DNA of 64,000 nt, taken from the NCBI RefSeq assembly GCF_000722875.1, contig NZ_JFHR01000014.1, forward strand, positions 1-64,000, read 5' to 3'. This document shows positions 2,715 to 32,065 of the stretch, piece after piece; position 1 is the first letter of the stretch, and each line of letters opens with the position of its first letter. The stretch is from Sphingobium chlorophenolicum. GTDB taxonomy: Bacteria; Pseudomonadota; Alphaproteobacteria; Sphingomonadales; Sphingomonadaceae. Made by a program: the position numbers and the translations under genes. The notes under the pieces were generated by a model, which was given only the letters and a program-made list of their open reading frames with translations, was not told the DNA's origin and searched no databases.

Positions 2715-3671
2715 ATGGGACGCCTGCGCGCCGCTCTGGGCATCGCCGTTGCGATCGCCGGCCCCTCTTTCGCCGCGCAGAACGGCACGGCGCTGGACCC
2801 CGGCGATCCGCCCGCCGTCGTCCGCACAGTCCCCGACGCCGATTCCCGCATCACCATCCCGATCCGGATCGACGGCAAGGGGCCGTGGAACTTCATCGTC
2901 GACACCGGGTCGCAGCGGACCGTCATCGCCCGCGACCTGGCCGAACAACTGGCGCTGCCGGTGCGGGAGCGGGTGACGGTGATCAGCATGACCGGCCGGG
3001 CTGACGTGCATACGGTCGCGGTGCCGCGCCTGGGCTTCGGCAAGACGGTGGTGGACGATATCGAAGCGCCGGTGCTGGAGGGCGAGAATATCGGCGCGGC
3101 GGGGCTGCTGGGGCTGGACGGGCTGCATTCCAAGCGGCTGCTGCTGAATTTCCGCACCGGCCGGATGGAGATCGGCAACAGCAAGCAGGGTCTGCGCGAT
3201 CCCAACGCCATCATCGTGGAGGCGCGGCGGCGCAAGGGCCAGTTGATCCTGCTCGATTCCGACGTGAACGGGTCGAAGGTTTCCATCATCCTGGATACCG
3301 GCACGACGATCAGCGTCGGCAATATGGCGCTGATGAACAAGTTGGCGCGCAAGAAGAAGGCGCCTGCCTTGAGCCTAGTGACGCTGACCAGCGTGACGGG
3401 CGAGGCGCTGACGGGCCAGTTGGGGCTGATCGACCGGGTGCGCATGGGGCAAGTGACGCTGAAGGACACGCCGGTGATGTTTGCCGACGCCCGGCCTTTC
3501 GCGGAACTGGACCTTCAGGACAAGCCCGCCTTGCTGCTGGGCATCGACGCGCTCAAGGTGTTCGACAGGGTGGCCATCGATTTCGGGCGGGGGAAGGTGG
3601 ACTTCCTGCTGCCGGATACCGGGGCGCTGGAGCGGGCGCGCTATGCGGCGGCGCAGGGCGCGGGGGGTTAG
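2715..3671 (+). CDS. Periplasmic retropepsin-like aspartyl protease with two DTG motifs
   Basis: 318 residues, starting at ATG 2715 behind ggagg (2701-2705). The N-terminus (MGRLRAALGIAVAIAG..FAAQ) is a signal peptide, so the enzyme should act in the periplasm. Two catalytic-type motifs are present in one chain: IVDTGSQRTVI (D at about 63) and ILDTGTTISVG (D at about 194), each in a half of similar length. The single polypeptide can therefore form a pseudo-dimeric pepsin/retropepsin site. Related alphaproteobacterial proteins include the PerP-type periplasmic proteases, but the target here is unknown. It is flanked by the minus-strand rho and PBP genes, so it is probably transcribed alone. 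Confidence 0.8.
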   Translation: MGRLRAALGIAVAIAGPSFAAQNGTALDPGDPPAVVRTVPDADSRITIPIRIDGKGPWNFIVDTGSQRTVIARDLAEQLALPVRERVTVISMTGRADVHTVAVPRLGFGKTVVDDIEAPVLEGENIGAAGLLGLDGLHSKRLLLNFRTGRMEIGNSKQGLRDPNAIIVEARRRKGQLILLDSDVNGSKVSIILDTGTTISVGNMALMNKLARKKKAPALSLVTLTSVTGEALTGQLGLIDRVRMGQVTLKDTPVMFADARPFAELDLQDKPALLLGIDALKVFDRVAIDFGRGKVDFLLPDTGALERARYAAAQGAGG

Positions 3672-3692
3672 GCGCGCTCCATACAAGCTGCT

Positions 3693-3782
3693 CGTCATGC
3701 TGAACTTGTTTCAGCATCCATTCCTCCCCAGGCACGGCGGCTTGTGGGGCGCGATGGATGCTGAAACAAGTTCAGCATGACA
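3693..3782. repeat. Two-armed palindromic intergenic repeat
   Basis: The left arm (tcatgctgaacttgtttc…) and right arm (…gaaacaagttcagcatga) are inverted copies of about 27 bases. They are separated by about 35 bases and sit between the convergent protease and PBP genes. The structure would fold into a long hairpin and may terminate both transcripts, although there is no clear T-run. It is one of several two-armed REP-like elements in the window. Confidence 0.8.
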
Positions 3783-3787
3783 GGTTT

Positions 3788-5860
3788 CTAACGTTGCGCT
3801 GGTTGCTGCTGCCGGTTGCGGCCCAGCACATTGTCGATCCATTGCTGGTCAAGGCGCGGCGGCTGGGGGCGGTCGGCGGGGTTGGGGGCGGCCTGGTCGC
3901 TGTCGTCGGGCTGTGAATCATCCTCCGGCTGCTGCTGGCCTCGTTCGATGGGCAGGCCGTTTTCGTCGACCATCATGCCGCTGTCCGTTCCGCTGTCGGG
4001 CTGGCCGTAATAGGCTTCCTCGTCCGGTTCCAACTGCCATTCGGGCAGCGTCACCTGGGTTTCGAACTGTTCGACCGGGCGTTTGGCGACGGCGACCTTC
4101 ATATAGTCGGCAAAGGCATGGGCGGGGGCGCGGCCGCCTTGCAGCACGCCCACGGCGCGGGCGTCGTCGCGGCCCATCCAGACGCCGGTGGTGATGCCGC
4201 TGGAAAAGCCCAGGAACCAGCCGTCCTTGTTGCTGCTGGTGGTGCCGGTCTTGCCCGCGACGGGGCGGCCGATCTGCGCCGCCCGGCCGGTGCCGGTGCT
4301 GACGGCGGTCTGCATCAGATCCGTCATCCCCGCCGCGACCCAGGGGGCGACCAGCACGCGGCTGGTGTCGTCCTGATGTTCGTAGAGCAGGCGGCCTTCG
4401 GCGGTCGTGACCTTGGTGATGCCATAGGGCGTCACCGCCACGCCCTTGCGCGCGATGGAGGCGAAGGCGCGGGTCATGTCGATCAGCCGCACGTCGGACG
4501 TGCCCAGCACCATCGATGGATGCGTGTTGATCGGCGTGGTGACGCCGAAGCGGCGGGCCATGTCCGCCACGGTGGGGAAGCCGACCTCGACTCCCAGCTT
4601 CGCCGCCACGGTGTTGACCGAATAGGCGAAGGCGGTGCGGATATCGATGTCGCCGGAAAAGCGGCCGTTGCTGTTGCGCGGCTTCCACCCGTTGATGTCG
4701 ACCGGGCTGTCGGTGACGCCGGTGTCGGGGGTATAGCCTGCCTCCAGCGCCGCCATATAGACGAAGATCTTCCAGGAGGAGCCGGGCTGGCGCGTCGCGG
4801 TGGTGGCGCGGTTATAGTTGGAACTCACATAGTCGAGGCCGCCGACCATCGCCCGCACCGCGCCGTCGCGGTCGAGCGAGACCAGCGCGCCCTGGGTGCC
4901 GCCGGGCACGTTCGCCTGGATCGCGGCGGTCGCCGCCTTCTGCATGTTGAGGTCGATGGTGGTGTAGACCTCCAGCGGCTCGTTCGGCTCGTCGATCAGC
5001 GTGTCGAGTTGCGGCAGCGCCCAGTCGGTGAAGTAGCGGACGCTGTTCTGCGGCGGCTCCGGGGCCATCTTCACGTCCTGGAGATTGGCGGCGGCGCGTT
5101 CGGCCGCGCTGATCTTGCCGTTTTCCTGCATCAGGTCCAGCACAACCCCGGCGCGGCCGATGGCGGCTTCCGCGTCGGCGGTGGGGGAATAGCTGGAGGG
5201 GGCCTTCACAAGGCCCGCGACAATGGCGGCTTCGGGAAGGTTCAGGCCGGTCGCGGGATGGCCGAAAAATTTGCGGCTGGCGGCGTCGATGCCGTAAGCG
5301 CCGCCGCCGAAATAGACCTTGTTGAGGTAAAGTTCGAGGATCTGCCGCTTGGAGAATTTGCGCTCCAGCGCGAGGGCCAACACCATTTCCCGGACCTTGC
5401 GGCCCCAGCTATAGCTGTTGTTGAGGAAGATGTTGCGCGTCACCTGCTGGGTGATGGTGGACGCGCCCTGCCAACGGCGGCCGCTGCCGCGCCGCTCCAT
5501 CGCCACCCAGGCGGCGCGGGCCATGCCGATGGGGTCGACGCCGGGGTGCAGATAGTAACGCTTGTCCTCGGTCGAGATCATCGCGTCGACCATGACGTTG
5601 GGAATCTGGTCATAGCTCATCCAGCGGCCAAAGCTGGGGCCGAGCGATACGATGACGCTGCCGTCCGCCGCATGGACGCGGATCATCTGGCCGTTGGGGG
5701 AGGATTTCAGCGATTCATAATCGGGCAGCGACTGATAGGCGATGACCACCGCCACGACGAGGGCGACCGCCGCGCTCAAAAAGCCGACGAGGCCGATTTT
5801 CACGCCCCTTATCAGCCATTTCCTAAGCCTGCTTCGCGGTTTGCTGCTCGATTTTGCCAT
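3788..5860 (-). CDS. mrcA: Class A penicillin-binding protein (PBP1A-type transglycosylase/transpeptidase)
   Basis: 690 residues. A basic N-terminus and one membrane anchor (about 20-42) are followed by a GT51 transglycosylase domain with catalytic Glu98 (STEDKRYYLHPGVDP) and the QGASTITQQVTRN and RKFSKRQILELYLN motifs. The transpeptidase domain has SxxK (PGSSWK, about 360) and KTGTT (about 537). It polymerises and cross-links peptidoglycan in the periplasm. The C-terminal 80 residues are rich in P, Q and D and probably disordered. Length and domain order are normal for PBP1A-like proteins; assignment to 1A rather than another class A subtype is by overall resemblance. Confidence 0.93.
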   Translation of the reverse strand: MAKSSSKPRSRLRKWLIRGVKIGLVGFLSAAVALVVAVVIAYQSLPDYESLKSSPNGQMIRVHAADGSVIVSLGPSFGRWMSYDQIPNVMVDAMISTEDKRYYLHPGVDPIGMARAAWVAMERRGSGRRWQGASTITQQVTRNIFLNNSYSWGRKVREMVLALALERKFSKRQILELYLNKVYFGGGAYGIDAASRKFFGHPATGLNLPEAAIVAGLVKAPSSYSPTADAEAAIGRAGVVLDLMQENGKISAAERAAANLQDVKMAPEPPQNSVRYFTDWALPQLDTLIDEPNEPLEVYTTIDLNMQKAATAAIQANVPGGTQGALVSLDRDGAVRAMVGGLDYVSSNYNRATTATRQPGSSWKIFVYMAALEAGYTPDTGVTDSPVDINGWKPRNSNGRFSGDIDIRTAFAYSVNTVAAKLGVEVGFPTVADMARRFGVTTPINTHPSMVLGTSDVRLIDMTRAFASIARKGVAVTPYGITKVTTAEGRLLYEHQDDTSRVLVAPWVAAGMTDLMQTAVSTGTGRAAQIGRPVAGKTGTTSSNKDGWFLGFSSGITTGVWMGRDDARAVGVLQGGRAPAHAFADYMKVAVAKRPVEQFETQVTLPEWQLEPDEEAYYGQPDSGTDSGMMVDENGLPIERGQQQPEDDSQPDDSDQAAPNPADRPQPPRLDQQWIDNVLGRNRQQQPAQR

Positions 5861-24847: not shown

Positions 24848-25540
24848 TCAGGCCTCCTCCAGCCAGAGCGGCTTTTCCAGCGTCGCGACGAACGCTGCAT
24901 GCCTCTCCAACTCTTCCGCGCTGGCCGCGAAAACGCGCGCGGGACGAACAGGGCGAACCGCGGCCTTCGCCGCAAGTTCCATGTTTACAATGAGTTTCTC
25001 TTCCTCCTGTGCAAGACCAAGGCCGATCTGACGGCCGCCGGTCAGTTCGATGTAAAGCTGGGCCAGCAATTCGGCGTCGAGCAAGGCGCCATGCTTGATG
25101 CGATGGCTGCGGTCGATGCCGTAGCGGGTGCAGAGCGCGTCCAGGCTGTGCTTGGCGCCTGGGTGAATCTGCCGGGCGATGGCGACGGTGTCGATCATCC
25201 GGTCCATCGACACTTCGGGCAGGCCGCACAGTTTCAGTTCGTGATTGAGGAAGCCGAAGTCGAAGCGCGCATTATGCGCGACCAGATGGCTGTCCTCCAG
25301 AAAGGCGAGCAATTCCTGCACGCCATGCCCGAACAGCGGCTTGTCCCTCAGGAATCCGTCCGACAGGCCGTGCACGGCTTCCGCGGCGGCGGGCATGGAC
25401 CGCTGCGGATTATAATAAGCGTGGAAGGTGCGGCCCGTGGGCACCCGGTTGAGGAGTTCAATGCACCCGATCTCGACCAGGCGATCGCCTGAGGCAGGGT
25501 CGAAGCCAGTCGTTTCGGTGTCGAAAATAATCTCGCGCAT
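24848..25540 (-). CDS. dnaQ: DNA polymerase III epsilon subunit (3'-5' proofreading exonuclease)
   Basis: 230 residues from ATG 25540. The DEDDh exonuclease motifs are present: MREIIFDTETTGFDP (ExoI), AHNARFDFGFLNHEL (ExoII) and HGALLDAELLA (ExoIII, with H and D). The C-terminal tail (RPVRPARVFAASAEELERHAAF) should contact the alpha subunit. It edits replication errors. It is last in the ppsR-maf-aroE-coaE-dnaQ block that flanks the origin in many alphaproteobacteria. Confidence 0.96.
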   Translation of the reverse strand: MREIIFDTETTGFDPASGDRLVEIGCIELLNRVPTGRTFHAYYNPQRSMPAAAEAVHGLSDGFLRDKPLFGHGVQELLAFLEDSHLVAHNARFDFGFLNHELKLCGLPEVSMDRMIDTVAIARQIHPGAKHSLDALCTRYGIDRSHRIKHGALLDAELLAQLYIELTGGRQIGLGLAQEEEKLIVNMELAAKAAVRPVRPARVFAASAEELERHAAFVATLEKPLWLEEA

Positions 25541-25583
25541 CGCCCTCTTCAACGACTCTTTCCGGCCAGCCGCCGGACCCTTC

Positions 25584-26177
25584 TTATCGGACTCTCTTCG
25601 CGCCAAGGCAAGCGACCAAGCGGCGAACCTGATCGCGGGTCTGGGCGAAGGTCGTCCCGGTATGGATGATATAGTCGGCCCGCCGCCGCTTTTCAGCATC
25701 GGGTGTTTGCAGATGGACAATCCGGCGGAATTTTGCAGCGGTCATGTCGGGCCGGGCCAGGACTCGCTTGCGCTGCTTCCAGCCAGGGGCGGTGACGACG
25801 ATGACGCCCGCCAGCTTGCGATAGCCATGGGTTTCGAAGAGCAGCGGAATATCCAGCACGACGAATTTGCGCGAGCGATGACGGCGCAGGAACGCCTTGC
25901 GGCTGTGCTGCACGGCGGGATGGATGATGGCTTCCAGTGCTTTCAACTCCTGCGGATGGCCGAAGACCGCCGCGCCCAGCTTTGCCCTGTCGACGCCCCT
26001 GGGGCCGGTGGTGCCGGGAAAGCGGGCCTCTATGGCGGGCAGGAGGGGGCCGCCCGGCCCTTGCAGCCGGTGCACTTCGGCGTCCGCGTCGAACAGGGGC
26101 ACCCCCTCCCGCCGCAACATGGCCGCGACGGCGGACTTGCCCATGCCGATGGAGCCGGTGAGGCCGTAAATCTTCAT
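25584..26177 (-). CDS. coaE: Dephospho-CoA kinase
   Basis: 197 residues. A P-loop (LTGSIGMGKSAVAAMLRREG, residues about 6-13) is followed by VPLFDADAEVHRLQ, HPAVQ and VVLDIPLLFETHGY, the expected CoaE blocks. It adds the 3'-phosphate in the last step of coenzyme A synthesis. It starts 5 bases after the aroE stop and ends 43 bases before dnaQ. Confidence 0.96.
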   Translation of the reverse strand: MKIYGLTGSIGMGKSAVAAMLRREGVPLFDADAEVHRLQGPGGPLLPAIEARFPGTTGPRGVDRAKLGAAVFGHPQELKALEAIIHPAVQHSRKAFLRRHRSRKFVVLDIPLLFETHGYRKLAGVIVVTAPGWKQRKRVLARPDMTAAKFRRIVHLQTPDAEKRRRADYIIHTGTTFAQTRDQVRRLVACLGAKRVR

Positions 26178-26182
26178 ATATC

Positions 26183-27004
26183 TCAGGCGGCGAGCAGCAG
26201 GGCGCGCAATTCCTCGTCCCGCTCACGCGGCGCTTGCGCATCGAAGAAGATGTCGAAGGCCAGCGCCGCCTGGCCGATCAGCATTTCCAACCCGTCCAGC
26301 GTGTTGAGGCCCCTCGCCCGCGCCGCCTTGAGCAGGGGCGTTTCCAGCGGCGCATAGACGATGTCATAGACGGTCGCGTCGTCCGCCAGCGGCTTGAGGT
26401 CGAGGTCCAGCGCGGGCTGGCCCACCATGCCGAGCGAACTGGTGTTGACCAGCAGGTCGGCCTTGGGCAGCGCATCGGCCATGCCGATCACCCTGCCCTT
26501 GGTCCCGGCGCGGTCGAGCAAGGCCTGTCCCTTGGCCGCGTCGCGGACCATGACGGTGATGTCGGCCACGCCCAGGCTGGTGAGCGCGAACAGGATCGCC
26601 CGCGCCGCGCCGCCCGCGCCGACCAGCACCGCGCTCTGCCCCTTCCACTTGTCGCGCAGCAAGGGTTGCAGGAAGCCGCCCGCATCGGTGTTGGTGCCGA
26701 TCAGCGGCCCGCCGGTCTCGCTGGCGATGGTGTTCATCGCGCCGATCCGTTCCCGCACGCCGCCCGGATCGTCGGTATAGTCCATCACCGCGATCTTGTG
26801 CGGGATGGTGACGCTGCATCCCAGCCAGTCGGGATCGGCCCGCCGGGCGAGGAAATAGGCGGCCAGCCCCTCGCTGGTGACGTGGGTCTTCTTATATTCC
26901 GCCTCTATCCCCAGCGCATCGAGCCAGAAATTGTGGATCAGCGGGGATTTGCTGTGCGCGATCGGATCGCCGATCACCTCGGCATAGGGGAGCTTGTCGG
27001 TCAT
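26183..27004 (-). CDS. aroE: Shikimate dehydrogenase
   Basis: 273 residues. The shikimate-binding N-terminus (YAEVIGDPIAHSKSPLIHNFWL, with SKS), the catalytic Lys region (GCSVTIPHKIAVMDY), NTDAGGFLQPL, and an NADP-binding Rossmann loop (VLVGAGGAARAILFAL) are present. It catalyses the fourth step of the shikimate pathway. The start overlaps the maf stop by 4 bases (ATGA), indicating coupling. Confidence 0.97.
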   Translation of the reverse strand: MTDKLPYAEVIGDPIAHSKSPLIHNFWLDALGIEAEYKKTHVTSEGLAAYFLARRADPDWLGCSVTIPHKIAVMDYTDDPGGVRERIGAMNTIASETGGPLIGTNTDAGGFLQPLLRDKWKGQSAVLVGAGGAARAILFALTSLGVADITVMVRDAAKGQALLDRAGTKGRVIGMADALPKADLLVNTSSLGMVGQPALDLDLKPLADDATVYDIVYAPLETPLLKAARARGLNTLDGLEMLIGQAALAFDIFFDAQAPRERDEELRALLLAA

Positions 27005-27594
27005 GACTCCAGAACGCCCCTGACGCGCAGAAAGTCAAGCAGGGGCAGCAGCGGAAGGCCCTGAATCGCGAACTGGCTGCCCTCCACCTTCGCGAAAAGC
27101 TGCGCGCCCGGCCCCTCTATTCGGTAGCAGCCGACGCACCAGCGGCATTCATCCCAATCGCCGTCGAGATAGGCGGCAATGAATGCGTCAGACAAGGGGC
27201 GCACCGTCATCCGCACGCGTTCGATATGCCGCCAGATCGGTTCGCCGTTGAGCGCGATCACCGCCGCGCTGTGCAGATGATGGACCCGGCCGGAGAGCAG
27301 CTTCAATATGCGCTCCGCATCGGCGCGGTCGACCGCCTTGTCGATCATCGCGCCATCGTCCAGGCTGAGCGTCTGGTCGCAGCCCAGCACCAGCCCGCCC
27401 GGCACCCGGCGCGACACGCGCAGCGCCTTCAGTTCCGCCAGCGCGTCGGCCAGTTGCCGCGCGTCCAGCCCGTCGGCACGCAGGGCTTCCTTGGCCGCTT
27501 CCTCATCGACGCCGGGGGAGAGCGCCTCGAACGGCACCCGCGCCGCTTCCAGCAGCGCCCGGCGGCTCGCGCTTTGCGATGCCAGCACGATCAT
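27001..27594 (-). CDS. maf: Maf-family nucleotide pyrophosphatase
   Basis: 197 residues from ATG 27594 (MIVLASQSASRRALLEAARVPF); upstream in-frame sequence lies within ppsR and is spurious. The conserved SQSASRR.LL start, VLGCDQTLSLDDGAMIDKA, SGRVHHLHSAAV and C-terminal IQGLPL.PLLDFLR are typical. Maf proteins hydrolyse non-canonical or excess nucleoside triphosphates. Only 2 bases separate it from ppsR upstream, and it overlaps aroE downstream. Confidence 0.94.
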   Translation of the reverse strand: MIVLASQSASRRALLEAARVPFEALSPGVDEEAAKEALRADGLDARQLADALAELKALRVSRRVPGGLVLGCDQTLSLDDGAMIDKAVDRADAERILKLLSGRVHHLHSAAVIALNGEPIWRHIERVRMTVRPLSDAFIAAYLDGDWDECRWCVGCYRIEGPGAQLFAKVEGSQFAIQGLPLLPLLDFLRVRGVLES

Positions 27595-27596
27595 GG

Positions 27597-28418
27597 TCAG
27601 GCTCCTTCCGCCAGCACGCGGTCGTTGAACAGGTTGATGATGGCGGCGGCAGCTTCCTCGATGGAGCGGCGGGTCATGTCGATCACCGGCCAGCCATTGT
27701 CCGCGAACATGCGCCGGGCGAAGGCCAGTTCCTCCTGCACCTTCTCTATGTCGACATAACTGGTTTCCGGGGCCTGATTCAGGGACAGCAGCCGGTTGCG
27801 GCGAATCTGCACCAGCCGTTCCGGGCTGACCGTCAGCCCCACCACCATCGGATGCTTCAGCACGTAAAGCGCCTGCGGCGGCGGCGACTGGATCACCAGC
27901 GGGATATTGGCGGTCTTGTACCCGCGATTGGCGAGATAGATGGAGGTCGGCGTCTTGGAGGCGCGGGACACGCCCGCCAGCACGATGTCCGCCTCCTCCC
28001 AATTTTCATGACCCACGCCGTCGTCATGGGCGATGGTGAACTGGATCGCCTCGATCCGGGCGAAATAGGCTTCGTCCAATATATGCTTGCGGCCGGGACG
28101 GTTGCGGGTTTCCTGTCCCAATATGTTGGACAGGGCGTCGGTCACGCTGTCCAGCGCGGCGACATGCGGCAGGCCGAGCGCCCGGCAGCGCGTCTCCAGC
28201 CGCCGCCGAAGCTGGTGGTTGGACAGGGTGAAGAGCACCAGGCCCGGATTGGCGGCGATTTCCTCCATGATGCGGTCGAGATGGACGTCGGACCGGACCA
28301 TCGGCCAAAAATGGCGCACCGCCTCCACATTTTCGAACGCGCCGATGGCCGCCTTGGCGATATTCTCCAGCGTTTCGCCGGTGGAGTCCGAAAGCAAGTG
28401 GAGATGGATGCGCGACAT
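27597..28418 (-). CDS. ppsR: Pyruvate, water dikinase regulatory protein (DUF299; RP001 homologue)
   Basis: 273 residues from ATG 28418 (MSRIHLHLLSDSTGETLENI); ATG 28427 would add three residues and neither has a clear ribosome site. The DUF299 signatures are HLLSDSTGETLE, a P-loop-like ADIVLAGVSRASKTPTSIYLANRG, and YVDIEKVQEELAFARRMF. The family phosphorylates or dephosphorylates PEP synthase/PPDK. In Rickettsia and Caulobacter this gene flanks the replication origin together with hemE, exactly as here. Confidence 0.93.
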   Translation of the reverse strand: MSRIHLHLLSDSTGETLENIAKAAIGAFENVEAVRHFWPMVRSDVHLDRIMEEIAANPGLVLFTLSNHQLRRRLETRCRALGLPHVAALDSVTDALSNILGQETRNRPGRKHILDEAYFARIEAIQFTIAHDDGVGHENWEEADIVLAGVSRASKTPTSIYLANRGYKTANIPLVIQSPPPQALYVLKHPMVVGLTVSPERLVQIRRNRLLSLNQAPETSYVDIEKVQEELAFARRMFADNGWPVIDMTRRSIEEAAAAIINLFNDRVLAEGA

Positions 28419-28441
28419 GAGGAACATCTCTGTGGGGAGGC

Positions 28442-28450
28442 TGTGGATAA
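28442..28450 (+). promoter_or_regulatory. DnaA box (perfect)
   Basis: TGTGGATAA, the exact complement of the consensus TTATCCACA. It is the leftmost box in the putative origin. Confidence 0.75.
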
Positions 28451-28510
28451 AGCAAGGGATAGGTTGCGGGGAAAATCAGGCGCTTGTCGCCCTCCCCGAT
28501 TCCAGGAATC

Positions 28511-28519
28511 TTGTCCACA
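28511..28519 (-). promoter_or_regulatory. DnaA box (one mismatch)
   Basis: TTGTCCACA, differing from TTATCCACA at the third base. Its orientation is opposite to the perfect boxes. Confidence 0.6.
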
Positions 28520-28553
28520 GCCCGCCAACAGATGGAAATTAAAATCCACAGCC

Positions 28554-28562
28554 TGTGGATAA
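28554..28562 (+). promoter_or_regulatory. DnaA box (perfect) paired with a weaker inverse box
   Basis: TGTGGATAA lies three bases from the inverted near-match aaatccaca (28542-28550), so the pair forms an inverted arrangement around gcc. Confidence 0.75.
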
Positions 28563-28705
28563 GGGGGATAAGCGGACTGACTCGGACCGGAATCGGCGAC
28601 TCCGGAGAGTCAAGTTGTTGGCAAATCGGGGCACAGCGCATAAACCCCGCTGCCAACCGCCCTACTATCTCCATCATCCTTTTGAATCTAAATATAAGAG
28701 AGTTT

Positions 28706-29767
28706 ATGACGGGACCAGATGACGCGCTTTCCAACGGCCGGACGCTCAAGCCGTTGCTTTCGGTCCTGAAAGGCGCTTGCCCTGTTGTGCCGCCCATGTG
28801 GCTCATGCGCCAGGCGGGACGCTATCTGCCTGAATATCGCGCCTTGCGAGCGGAAAAGGGCGGATTCCTCGAAATGGTCTATGACAGTGCGGCGGCGGCA
28901 GAAGTGACCGTTCAGCCGCTGCGCCGTTTCGGTTTCGACGGGGCGATCCTGTTTTCCGACATTTTGATCGTGCCCTATGCCATGGGGCAGGATTTGTGGT
29001 TCGAGGCGGGAGAAGGACCGCGTCTGGCGCCGATCCTGGCCGAGACGGACCTGTCGGCCCTGAAACCCGATTTCAGCCGCTATGAGGCGGTGTATGAGAC
29101 GGTCCGGCAGGTGAAGGCCGCGCTGGACCCTCAGGTGACCTTCCTGGGCTTTGCAGGCAGCCCCTGGACCATCGCCACCTATATGGTCGCTGGTCAGGGC
29201 AGCAAGGATCAGGGCGCGGCCCGCCGCATGGCCTACAGCCAACCCGAAAAATTCGGCGCGATCATCGATGCGATCATCGATGCGACGGTGGTCTATCTGT
29301 CCGGCCAGATCGAGGCCGGGGTCGAGGCGGTGCAGCTTTTCGACAGTTGGGCGGGCAGCCTGGCTCCGCTGGAGTTCGAGCGCTGGGTGATCCGGCCCAA
29401 CCGGCGGATCGTGGAGAGGTTGAAGGCGATTCATCCGGACATTCCGGTGATCGGCTTTCCCAAAGGCGCGGGCGCGAAATTGGCCGATTATGCGGCGGGG
29501 ACCGGGGTCGATGCGGTCGGCGTCGATGAAACGGTCGATCCGCACTGGGCCAACCGGGTTCTGCCGCAAGGGCTGCCGGTGCAGGGGAATCTGGATCCGC
29601 TGGCGCTGATCGCCGGGGGCAAGGCGGTGGAAGAGGCGGTCGACAATATCCGCGCCGCCTTTGCCGGGCGGCCGCATATCTTCAACCTGGGGCACGGGAT
29701 ATTGCCCGACACCCCCATTGATCATGTCGAAGCGCTGCTTAGCTATGTGCGGGCAGCGGGAGACTGA
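28706..29767 (+). CDS. hemE: Uroporphyrinogen decarboxylase
   Basis: 353 residues from ATG 28706, which follows the AT-rich end of the origin. Signatures are PPMWLMRQAGRYLPEYRALR near the N-terminus, FSDILIVPYAMG, GFAGSPWTIATYMVAG and GAKLADYAAGTGVDAVGVDETVD. It decarboxylates uroporphyrinogen III to coproporphyrinogen III in heme synthesis. hemJ follows after 4 bases, so the two form an operon. Proximity to oriC gives it a high gene dosage during growth. Confidence 0.97.
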   Translation: MTGPDDALSNGRTLKPLLSVLKGACPVVPPMWLMRQAGRYLPEYRALRAEKGGFLEMVYDSAAAAEVTVQPLRRFGFDGAILFSDILIVPYAMGQDLWFEAGEGPRLAPILAETDLSALKPDFSRYEAVYETVRQVKAALDPQVTFLGFAGSPWTIATYMVAGQGSKDQGAARRMAYSQPEKFGAIIDAIIDATVVYLSGQIEAGVEAVQLFDSWAGSLAPLEFERWVIRPNRRIVERLKAIHPDIPVIGFPKGAGAKLADYAAGTGVDAVGVDETVDPHWANRVLPQGLPVQGNLDPLALIAGGKAVEEAVDNIRAAFAGRPHIFNLGHGILPDTPIDHVEALLSYVRAAGD

Positions 29768-31258: not shown

Positions 31259-32065
31259 ATGGCGAACGCCCAAACGCACCATATCGTCTTCGCCAATGAG
31301 AAGGGCGGAACCGGCAAGTCGACGACCGCCGTGCATACGGCCATCGCGCTGACGGTGTTGGGCCATCGCGTCGGCATGATCGACCTCGACCCGCGCCAGC
31401 GCACCATCACCCGCTATATGGAGAACCGGGCAGAGACCGCCCGCCGCCGCGGCATCGACCTGCCGACTCCGGATTTCGAAGTGTTCAAGGGCGACAGCGT
31501 CGAGGCGCTGGAGGAACAGGCCGCCGCCATGGCCGAGGGGAAGGATTTCCTGGTGGTCGACACGCCCGGCCGCGACGACGACTATGCCCGCCACATGGCC
31601 GCCCGCGCCCATACGCTGGTGACGCCGATGAACGACAGTTTCGTCGATTTCGACCTGATCGGGCAGGTGGACGCGGAAACATTCAAGGTGAAGCGCCTGT
31701 CCTTCTATTCCGAACTGATTTTCGAGGCGCGCAAGACCCGCGCCAAGGCGGATGGCGTCAGCATCGACTGGGTGGTGCTGCGCAACCGCGTCCAGCATCA
31801 TGACGCCCGCAACAAGAAGCGCGTGGGCGACGCGTTGACGGAGCTGTCCCGCCGCGTGGGATTCCGCGTGATTCCCGGCCTTTCGGAGCGGGTGATCTTC
31901 CGCGAACTCTTTCCGTCGGGTCTGACCCTGCTGGACAAGGGACATCTGGGCGAACTGGGCGTCAGCCATATCGCCGCCCGGCAGGAACTGCGCGAGATGG
32001 TGTCGGGCCTTGCCCTTCCCTCCCGCGCAGAGGTCGCGCCGCTGGATCTGCTCGGCGCCGCCTGA
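31259..32065 (+). CDS. mipZ: Division-plane positioning ATPase MipZ
   Basis: 268 residues. A ParA/MinD-type deviant Walker A (FANEKGGTGKSTTA, residues about 11-24) is followed by IDLDPRQRTITRYMENR and FLVVDTPGRDDDYARHMAARAHTLVTPMNDSFVDFDLIGQ, diagnostic for MipZ. In Caulobacter MipZ binds ParB near the origin and blocks FtsZ assembly at the poles, so division happens at midcell. Its position about 2.6 kb from the putative origin fits this role. The stop and the next start share a base (TGATG). Confidence 0.95.
   Translation: MANAQTHHIVFANEKGGTGKSTTAVHTAIALTVLGHRVGMIDLDPRQRTITRYMENRAETARRRGIDLPTPDFEVFKGDSVEALEEQAAAMAEGKDFLVVDTPGRDDDYARHMAARAHTLVTPMNDSFVDFDLIGQVDAETFKVKRLSFYSELIFEARKTRAKADGVSIDWVVLRNRVQHHDARNKKRVGDALTELSRRVGFRVIPGLSERVIFRELFPSGLTLLDKGHLGELGVSHIAARQELREMVSGLALPSRAEVAPLDLLGAA

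Follow-up and report, generated by a model that had tools for sequence, protein, structure and literature searches.

The gap between the divergent genes ppsR and hemE is, on sequence evidence, very probably the replication origin (oriC) of the main chromosome of this Sphingobium-like bacterium. The window analysed here is a 64-kb stretch of DNA, positions 1–64000 of contig C14, taken from a draft genome of 4,793,101 bases in 129 contigs. The gap carries DnaA boxes and a tract of low duplex stability, is conserved in relatives, and has a defined position relative to the strand-asymmetry switch and the parS sites of related chromosomes. The original prediction had assigned oriC to the same gap, and this assignment is supported by the combined asymmetry in four of four relatives, by parS and by the contig shared with dnaA in 12 of 12, by the conserved boxes, and by two deposited records that open within the gap. 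A placement beside hemE is the expected one for the Sphingomonadaceae and has already been predicted; the conserved positions of GANTC sites are the only fresh detail.

The earlier gene names at the locus (PpsR, HemE, MipZ, Maf, AroE, CoaE, and DnaQ) are correct, and the family and domain checks agree with them. Among named records, the closest PpsR proteins belong to Sphingobium, at 98% for Sphingobium sp. 15-1 and 97% for S. fuliginis. The locus is arranged as follows.

27597..28418, minus strand: ppsR (Kinase-PPPase, PF03618, DUF299, RP001 homologue), by the gene-name check
28419..28705, no strand: predicted oriC, intergenic and flanked by the divergent ppsR and hemE; conserved, and coinciding or nearly so with the switch in strand asymmetry in relatives
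28706..29767, plus strand: hemE, uroporphyrinogen decarboxylase, by the gene-name check
24848..27570, minus strand: maf, aroE, coaE, and dnaQ, by the gene-name check, a row described in the original prediction as neighbouring the Caulobacter and Rickettsia origin
31259..32065, plus strand: mipZ (PF09140, E 1.2e-110)

The implied ppsR start at 28418 is plausible, as the PpsR match of 59 of 80 relatives begins no earlier than residue 4 of the longer open reading frame. The site counts for the gap begin at 28428, past this longer frame, and cover 278 bp rather than 287. Of the genes earlier proposed as nearest to the origin, hemE stands, but mipZ and dnaQ do not, with the mipZ start 2.6 kb and dnaQ 2.9 kb away; the two nearest genes are ppsR and hemE. 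These divergent flanks recur in relatives: all 80 related loci, the best 80 of 570 candidates, have ppsR next to hemE and pointing away from it. The source records of these loci are named, and almost all carry sphingomonad labels.

Within the gap, TGTGGATAA occurs at 28442–28450 and 28554–28562 and reads TTATCCACA on the minus strand, forming two perfect DnaA boxes. Together with a one-mismatch box at 28511 and a weaker box at 28542, both are situated exactly where the original prediction had placed them. Their conservation was assessed in an aligned Sphingobium-type set of 29 gaps, consisting of the window and 28 relatives.

28442..28450, minus strand: DnaA box R1, TTATCCACA, perfect and identical in 29/29 Sphingobium-type gaps, window included
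28511..28519, plus strand: DnaA box R2, TTGTCCACA, one mismatch, with TTATCCACA at that place in 18/29 aligned gaps
28542..28550, plus strand: weak DnaA box R3, AAATCCACA, two mismatches, with a one-mismatch box there in many relatives
28554..28562, minus strand: DnaA box R4, TTATCCACA, perfect in 18/29 aligned gaps

R3 (28542–28550) faces R4 (from 28554) across three bases. The 64 kb contains two perfect boxes compared with 0.11 expected, and at least two were obtained in 0 of 100 shuffles; boxes within one mismatch amount to 12 compared with 3.66 expected, and three of the 12 are located inside the gap. In the whole 4.79-Mb draft, the total is ordinary, with 11 perfect boxes against 14 for a reversed control pattern. 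It is the clustering of perfect boxes, not their number, that is unusual: a close pair exists in the draft only in the ppsR–hemE gap and at C12:71734/71744, and the chance that 11 random sites in 4.79 Mb include a pair within 112 bases is approximately 0.003 (hand calculation).

On the hemE side of the boxes, the gap contains two further elements.

28618..28646, plus strand: conserved block TTGGCA...CATAAACC, candidate hemE promoter, from conservation in the aligned gaps
28666..28706, no strand: AT-rich tract beside hemE, candidate duplex unwinding element, with the lowest calculated stability of any 40-mer in the 64 kb

Stability was calculated as the nearest-neighbour energy of 40-base windows, and the lowest value of the 64 kb begins at 28666, confirming the AT-rich tract that had been noted by hemE. 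Among the best 80 of 570 loci, which are 3.8 to 20.8 kb long, the least stable 40-mer of the locus sits in the gap in 70, and the gap's own stability minimum has its centre at most 40 bases from hemE in 74. A consensus scan for sigma-70 promoters found none. Conserved TGTTGGCAA...ATAAACCCCGCTGCCAAC is observed at 28615–28657, before hemE, where TTGGCA and TGCCAA face each other; the block may be a promoter or a binding site for a regulator. The IHF motif has one-mismatch matches in the gap at 28474 and 28608, with a total of nine in the window compared with 11 expected.

Of 36 same-genus relatives, 35 have a match to the gap DNA, which in three (G017, G031, and G033) is only short and weak; none of 24 genomes outside the family but within the order has one. 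In the best 80 of 570 related gaps, 227 boxes within one mismatch are found, against 3.8 expected from their own flanks; at least two such boxes are present in 69 of the 80, and at least one perfect box in 48. The densest box place in these 80 loci is strictly the gap in 62 and ties with it in 14, while another place is richer in four. Across the class, where the loci are the best 29 of 88 relatives having a PpsR match, hemE and ppsR are divergent in 27 of 29, and the 27 gaps contain 63 boxes compared with 0.92 expected.

Similar structures are described for other origins. An oriC near hemE is predicted for most Sphingomonadaceae in DoriC, and the predicted oriC of Sphingopyxis granuli TFA contains conserved DnaA boxes and a putative DUE (PMC4741004); furthermore, hemE and a COG1806 (RP001) homologue constitute the flanking-gene rule for the Caulobacter and Rickettsia origin (PMC1914354). 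The hemE–COG1806 origin of Caulobacter crescentus, Cori, shares with the gap the flanking genes, the DnaA boxes, and internal GANTC (PMC1914354, PMC3973325). Cori contains five CtrA sites (PMC1914354), whereas TTAA-N7-TTAA occurs zero times in the window gap and is present in 4 of 80 related gaps (best 80 of 570). In Caulobacter, dnaA is close to Cori (PMC2217572), whereas it is far from the gap in the Sphingobium relatives, and the gap has 287 bases compared with more than 400 in Cori (PMC1914354). The predicted oriCs of Sphingopyxis granuli TFA and Novosphingobium PP1Y likewise lie by hemE with DnaA boxes (PMC4741004, PMC4059872), although both organisms are of other genera and the PP1Y origin is also near a dnaA gene (PMC4059872).

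In addition to the boxes, the gap holds a cluster of GANTC (CcrM) sites.

28498..28510, no strand: two GANTC, at 28498 and 28506, kept in 4/29 and 21/29 aligned gaps
28579..28583, no strand: GANTC 25 bp downstream of the R4 start, in 29/29 aligned gaps, where N varies (25 GACTC, 4 GAATC)
28590..28602, no strand: two poorly conserved GANTC, at 28590 and 28598, kept in 6/29 and 5/29
28607..28611, no strand: second conserved GANTC (GAGTC), 28 bp after the 28579 site, in 28/29 aligned gaps
28684..28688, no strand: GANTC in the AT-rich tract, with a GANTC start at gap position 252–260 in 24/28 Sphingobium-type relatives (by hand)

For the 28684 site, the column count of 0/29, window included, is invalid, as the alignment is gapped there. 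The 278-bp gap contains seven GANTC compared with 125 in the whole 64 kb; six lie within a single 120-base stretch, against at most three per 120 bases outside that neighbourhood. Across window positions 1–64000 as a whole, GANTC is strongly avoided, with the 125 sites set against 284 expected from shuffles. In the best 80 of 570 related gaps, GANTC is six-fold enriched (346 compared with 56 expected from the flanks), occurring at least once in 80 of 80 and at least twice in 78. Measured in 150-bp windows, GANTC density peaks in the gap alone in 34 of these 80 loci, equally in the gap and elsewhere in 22, and elsewhere in 24. The class-wide gaps (27 of the best 29 of 88 loci) contain 72 GANTC compared with 15.2 expected.

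The first conserved site keeps a particular distance from R4, and a GANTC is situated 24–26 bases after a minus-strand DnaA box of at most one mismatch in 49 of 80 related gaps (best 80 of 570), whereas rotating the sites within each gap gives 6.1 on average and never more than 15. As this rotation null ignores kinship, the 25-bp phase shows a conserved layout, not a series of independent events. Among the 27 class-wide gaps (best 29 of 88), with boxes of up to two mismatches, the phase is found in two, one of them from the same family; by this comparison, the 25-bp phase is a family trait. The extracts reached by a literature search contained no description of a GANTC phase in sphingomonad origins. 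The GANTC cluster is not new in kind, and its fixed phase in the Sphingomonadaceae is the fresh detail.

What these GANTC sites do is a separate question from the placement of the origin. About an even chance is given to their serving hemE transcription, by GcrA binding to methylated GANTC, instead of replication control. The second conserved site is located six bases before the promoter-like TTGGCA, the genome encodes GcrA and a CcrM-like methylase with a RAMA domain, GANTC is reported to be generally enriched in intergenic regions (PMC8116508), and CcrM is reported as not required for initiation control in Caulobacter (PMC3973325). The phasing of the first GANTC to a DnaA box (49/80 compared with 6.1) argues against a role in transcription alone, although a rigid layout of the whole gap would give the same count. 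Further reports concern methylation itself: among the m6A motifs of Sphingomonas sp. AAP5, GANTC ranked first in abundance (PMC8067484), according to a model paper a new round requires methylation of Cori (PMC2217572), and in Agrobacterium, CcrM depletion mainly delayed the second, RepC-dependent origin (PMC11514494).

Initiation may be gated by methylation. In its specific form, which we regard as speculative and rather improbable, the Sphingomonadaceae oriC would contain a fixed CcrM-sensing module, with a GANTC 25 bp past the DnaA box start and, in the Sphingobium type, a second one 28 bp further on and often a third in the unwinding tract; hemimethylation after firing would delay DnaA re-binding or hemE-promoter activity until CcrM acts. 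In the Escherichia coli oriC, with its Dam/SeqA system, the methylation motif is likewise clustered in the origin. That origin uses GATC, whereas the ppsR–hemE gap clusters GANTC instead and contains no GATC. If true, the module would be a GANTC counterpart of SeqA/Dam gating where the origin is mostly without CtrA sites.

As the draft is in 129 pieces, strand asymmetry was examined in sampled 20-kb stretches of near-complete same-genus relatives (42 in G008, 19 in G010, and 20 each in G029 and G003). An initial sampling, which comprised 20 stretches of G008 together with two more at its gap and 20 stretches of G010, among them one of only 2 kb, was noisy, and more G008 stretches and two further genomes were therefore sampled; the 2-kb end piece of G010 (L168) is excluded from the fit. 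The G008 record is opened inside the gap, and those of G010, G029, and G003 are not. The best-fit origin by the combined GC/AT/GGGNAGGG asymmetry deviates from the gap by 0 kb in G008, −4 kb in G010, 3 kb in G029, and 68 kb in G003. With the gap as origin, none of 5000 permutations attains the combined contrast in any of the four relatives, in a test that ignores neighbour correlation and hence gives optimistic p-values. KOPS, which form the background to the choice of GGGNAGGG, are known from E. coli. The oligomer was picked in G008 after viewing 11 oligomers and ranked 8- and 6-mers and was then applied to the three other relatives and to our own contig, so that G008 is no independent test of it.

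Taken singly, the measures scatter, with best fits from −106 to +209 kb for GC, from −539 to +24 kb for AT, and from −4 to +319 kb for GGGNAGGG; the largest deviation, 539 kb, is that of AT in G029. GC alone is weak, with a permutation p of 0.081 in G010 and 0.051 in G003. The inversion of GC skew that had been anticipated at about 28.5 kb does not appear in the window or on its contig (C14 left +0.015, right −0.001). The GC skew of C40 is +0.057, and the AT skew of the draft contigs is negative on both sides of the gap. The polarity of GGGNAGGG on C14 changes at the gap, with 2 forward and 8 reverse on the left and 22 and 14 on the right (one-sided Fisher p 0.025); when C40 is added to the left side, the counts become 11/20 and p is 0.032.

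In 12 of 12 relatives, the gap and the nearest parS are separated by 22.6–34.5 kb (distances by hand); parS lies on the hemE side in G007 and on the ppsR side in the remaining 11. The hemE-side position in G007 (C1:419265–455480) may reflect a local inversion or rearrangement. In the draft, parS-like matches of at most two mismatches are found at six places, three on C40:42650–45117 and one each on C12, C21, and C38. By synteny with G003, C40 precedes C14:1, which places the draft's parS cluster approximately 33–35.5 kb from the gap on the ppsR side. Both ends of the records G008:C1 and G011:C1 fall within the gap, the match in G011 ending at the last base of the record, 3351250.

It is very unlikely that the gap is a mere shared regulatory region of ppsR and hemE under DnaA (and GcrA/CcrM), with replication starting nearby, for instance at parS about 33 kb off. 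Divergent promoters must sit in the gap and a promoter-like conserved block is found before hemE, while 20-kb stretches are too coarse to distinguish the gap from parS by skew, the sampling being unable to resolve 35 kb. However, the parS-bearing contig C40 is devoid of perfect DnaA boxes, the least stable tract of the window is in the gap, and the boxes are kept in both related and class-wide loci.

The other close pair of perfect boxes in the draft, C12:71734/71744, is an exceedingly improbable origin and was rejected: the two tandem boxes, 10 bp apart, are kept in G008 and G012, but only a single box is left in the G029 and G024 loci, and in G003 the part bearing the boxes lies elsewhere. 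The counterparts of the C12 region lie in the terminus half of the relatives' chromosomes: measured by hand from the gap, they sit at about 0.45 (G008), 0.39 (G003), 0.39 (G010), and 0.62 (G029) of the full circle. These tandem boxes (C12:71734–71752; L112:9734–9752) are intergenic and are perhaps a DnaA-titrating site. Equally negligible is an origin at dnaA, the conventional opening point of many deposited circles: dnaA is at the first bases in 4 of 12 records (G010, G019, G029, and G016) and the predicted PP1Y origin is close to both hemE and a dnaA gene (PMC4059872), but dnaA, although it shares a contig with the gap in 12 of 12 relatives, is about 0.19–0.98 Mb away (by hand, circular contigs assumed), the combined asymmetry of G010 and G029 turns at the gap, approximately 367 and 905 kb from dnaA, and dnaA is reported as not conserved near ori in the Sphingomonadales (PMC8116508), so that this candidate was rejected on distance and asymmetry.

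With the ppsR–hemE gap as oriC, DnaA-ATP would fill R1, R2, and the facing pair R3/R4, oligomerise towards hemE, and melt the AT-rich tract at 28666–28706. The helicase would then be loaded, the forks would exit through ppsR and through hemE, and both origin copies would be segregated from parS, approximately 33–35 kb off on the ppsR side. The conserved GANTC between R4 and hemE would be hemimethylated at firing, which may, as a guess, tie hemE transcription or re-initiation to CcrM; should the sites gate initiation, they would provide a control for an alphaproteobacterial origin without CtrA sites. The placement of the origin for this genome also matters for gene-dosage and strand analyses, as the four of 12 near-complete records that start at dnaA (G010, G019, G029, and G016) begin about 0.37–0.9 Mb from the gap, the likely origin.

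A secondary replicon is not suggested by the RepA-family matches on C14, where there is no near-full-length one and only the partial match of MipZ; in the 12 relatives, the contig with the gap also carries dnaA and parS. In the draft, near-full-length RepA-family matches, all under the family cut-off, are located on C38, C18, C65, and C3. On C65, a perfect DnaA box at 2638–2646 lies approximately 300 bases before the RepA-family frame at 2950–4044, and this region is possibly the origin region of a secondary replicon.
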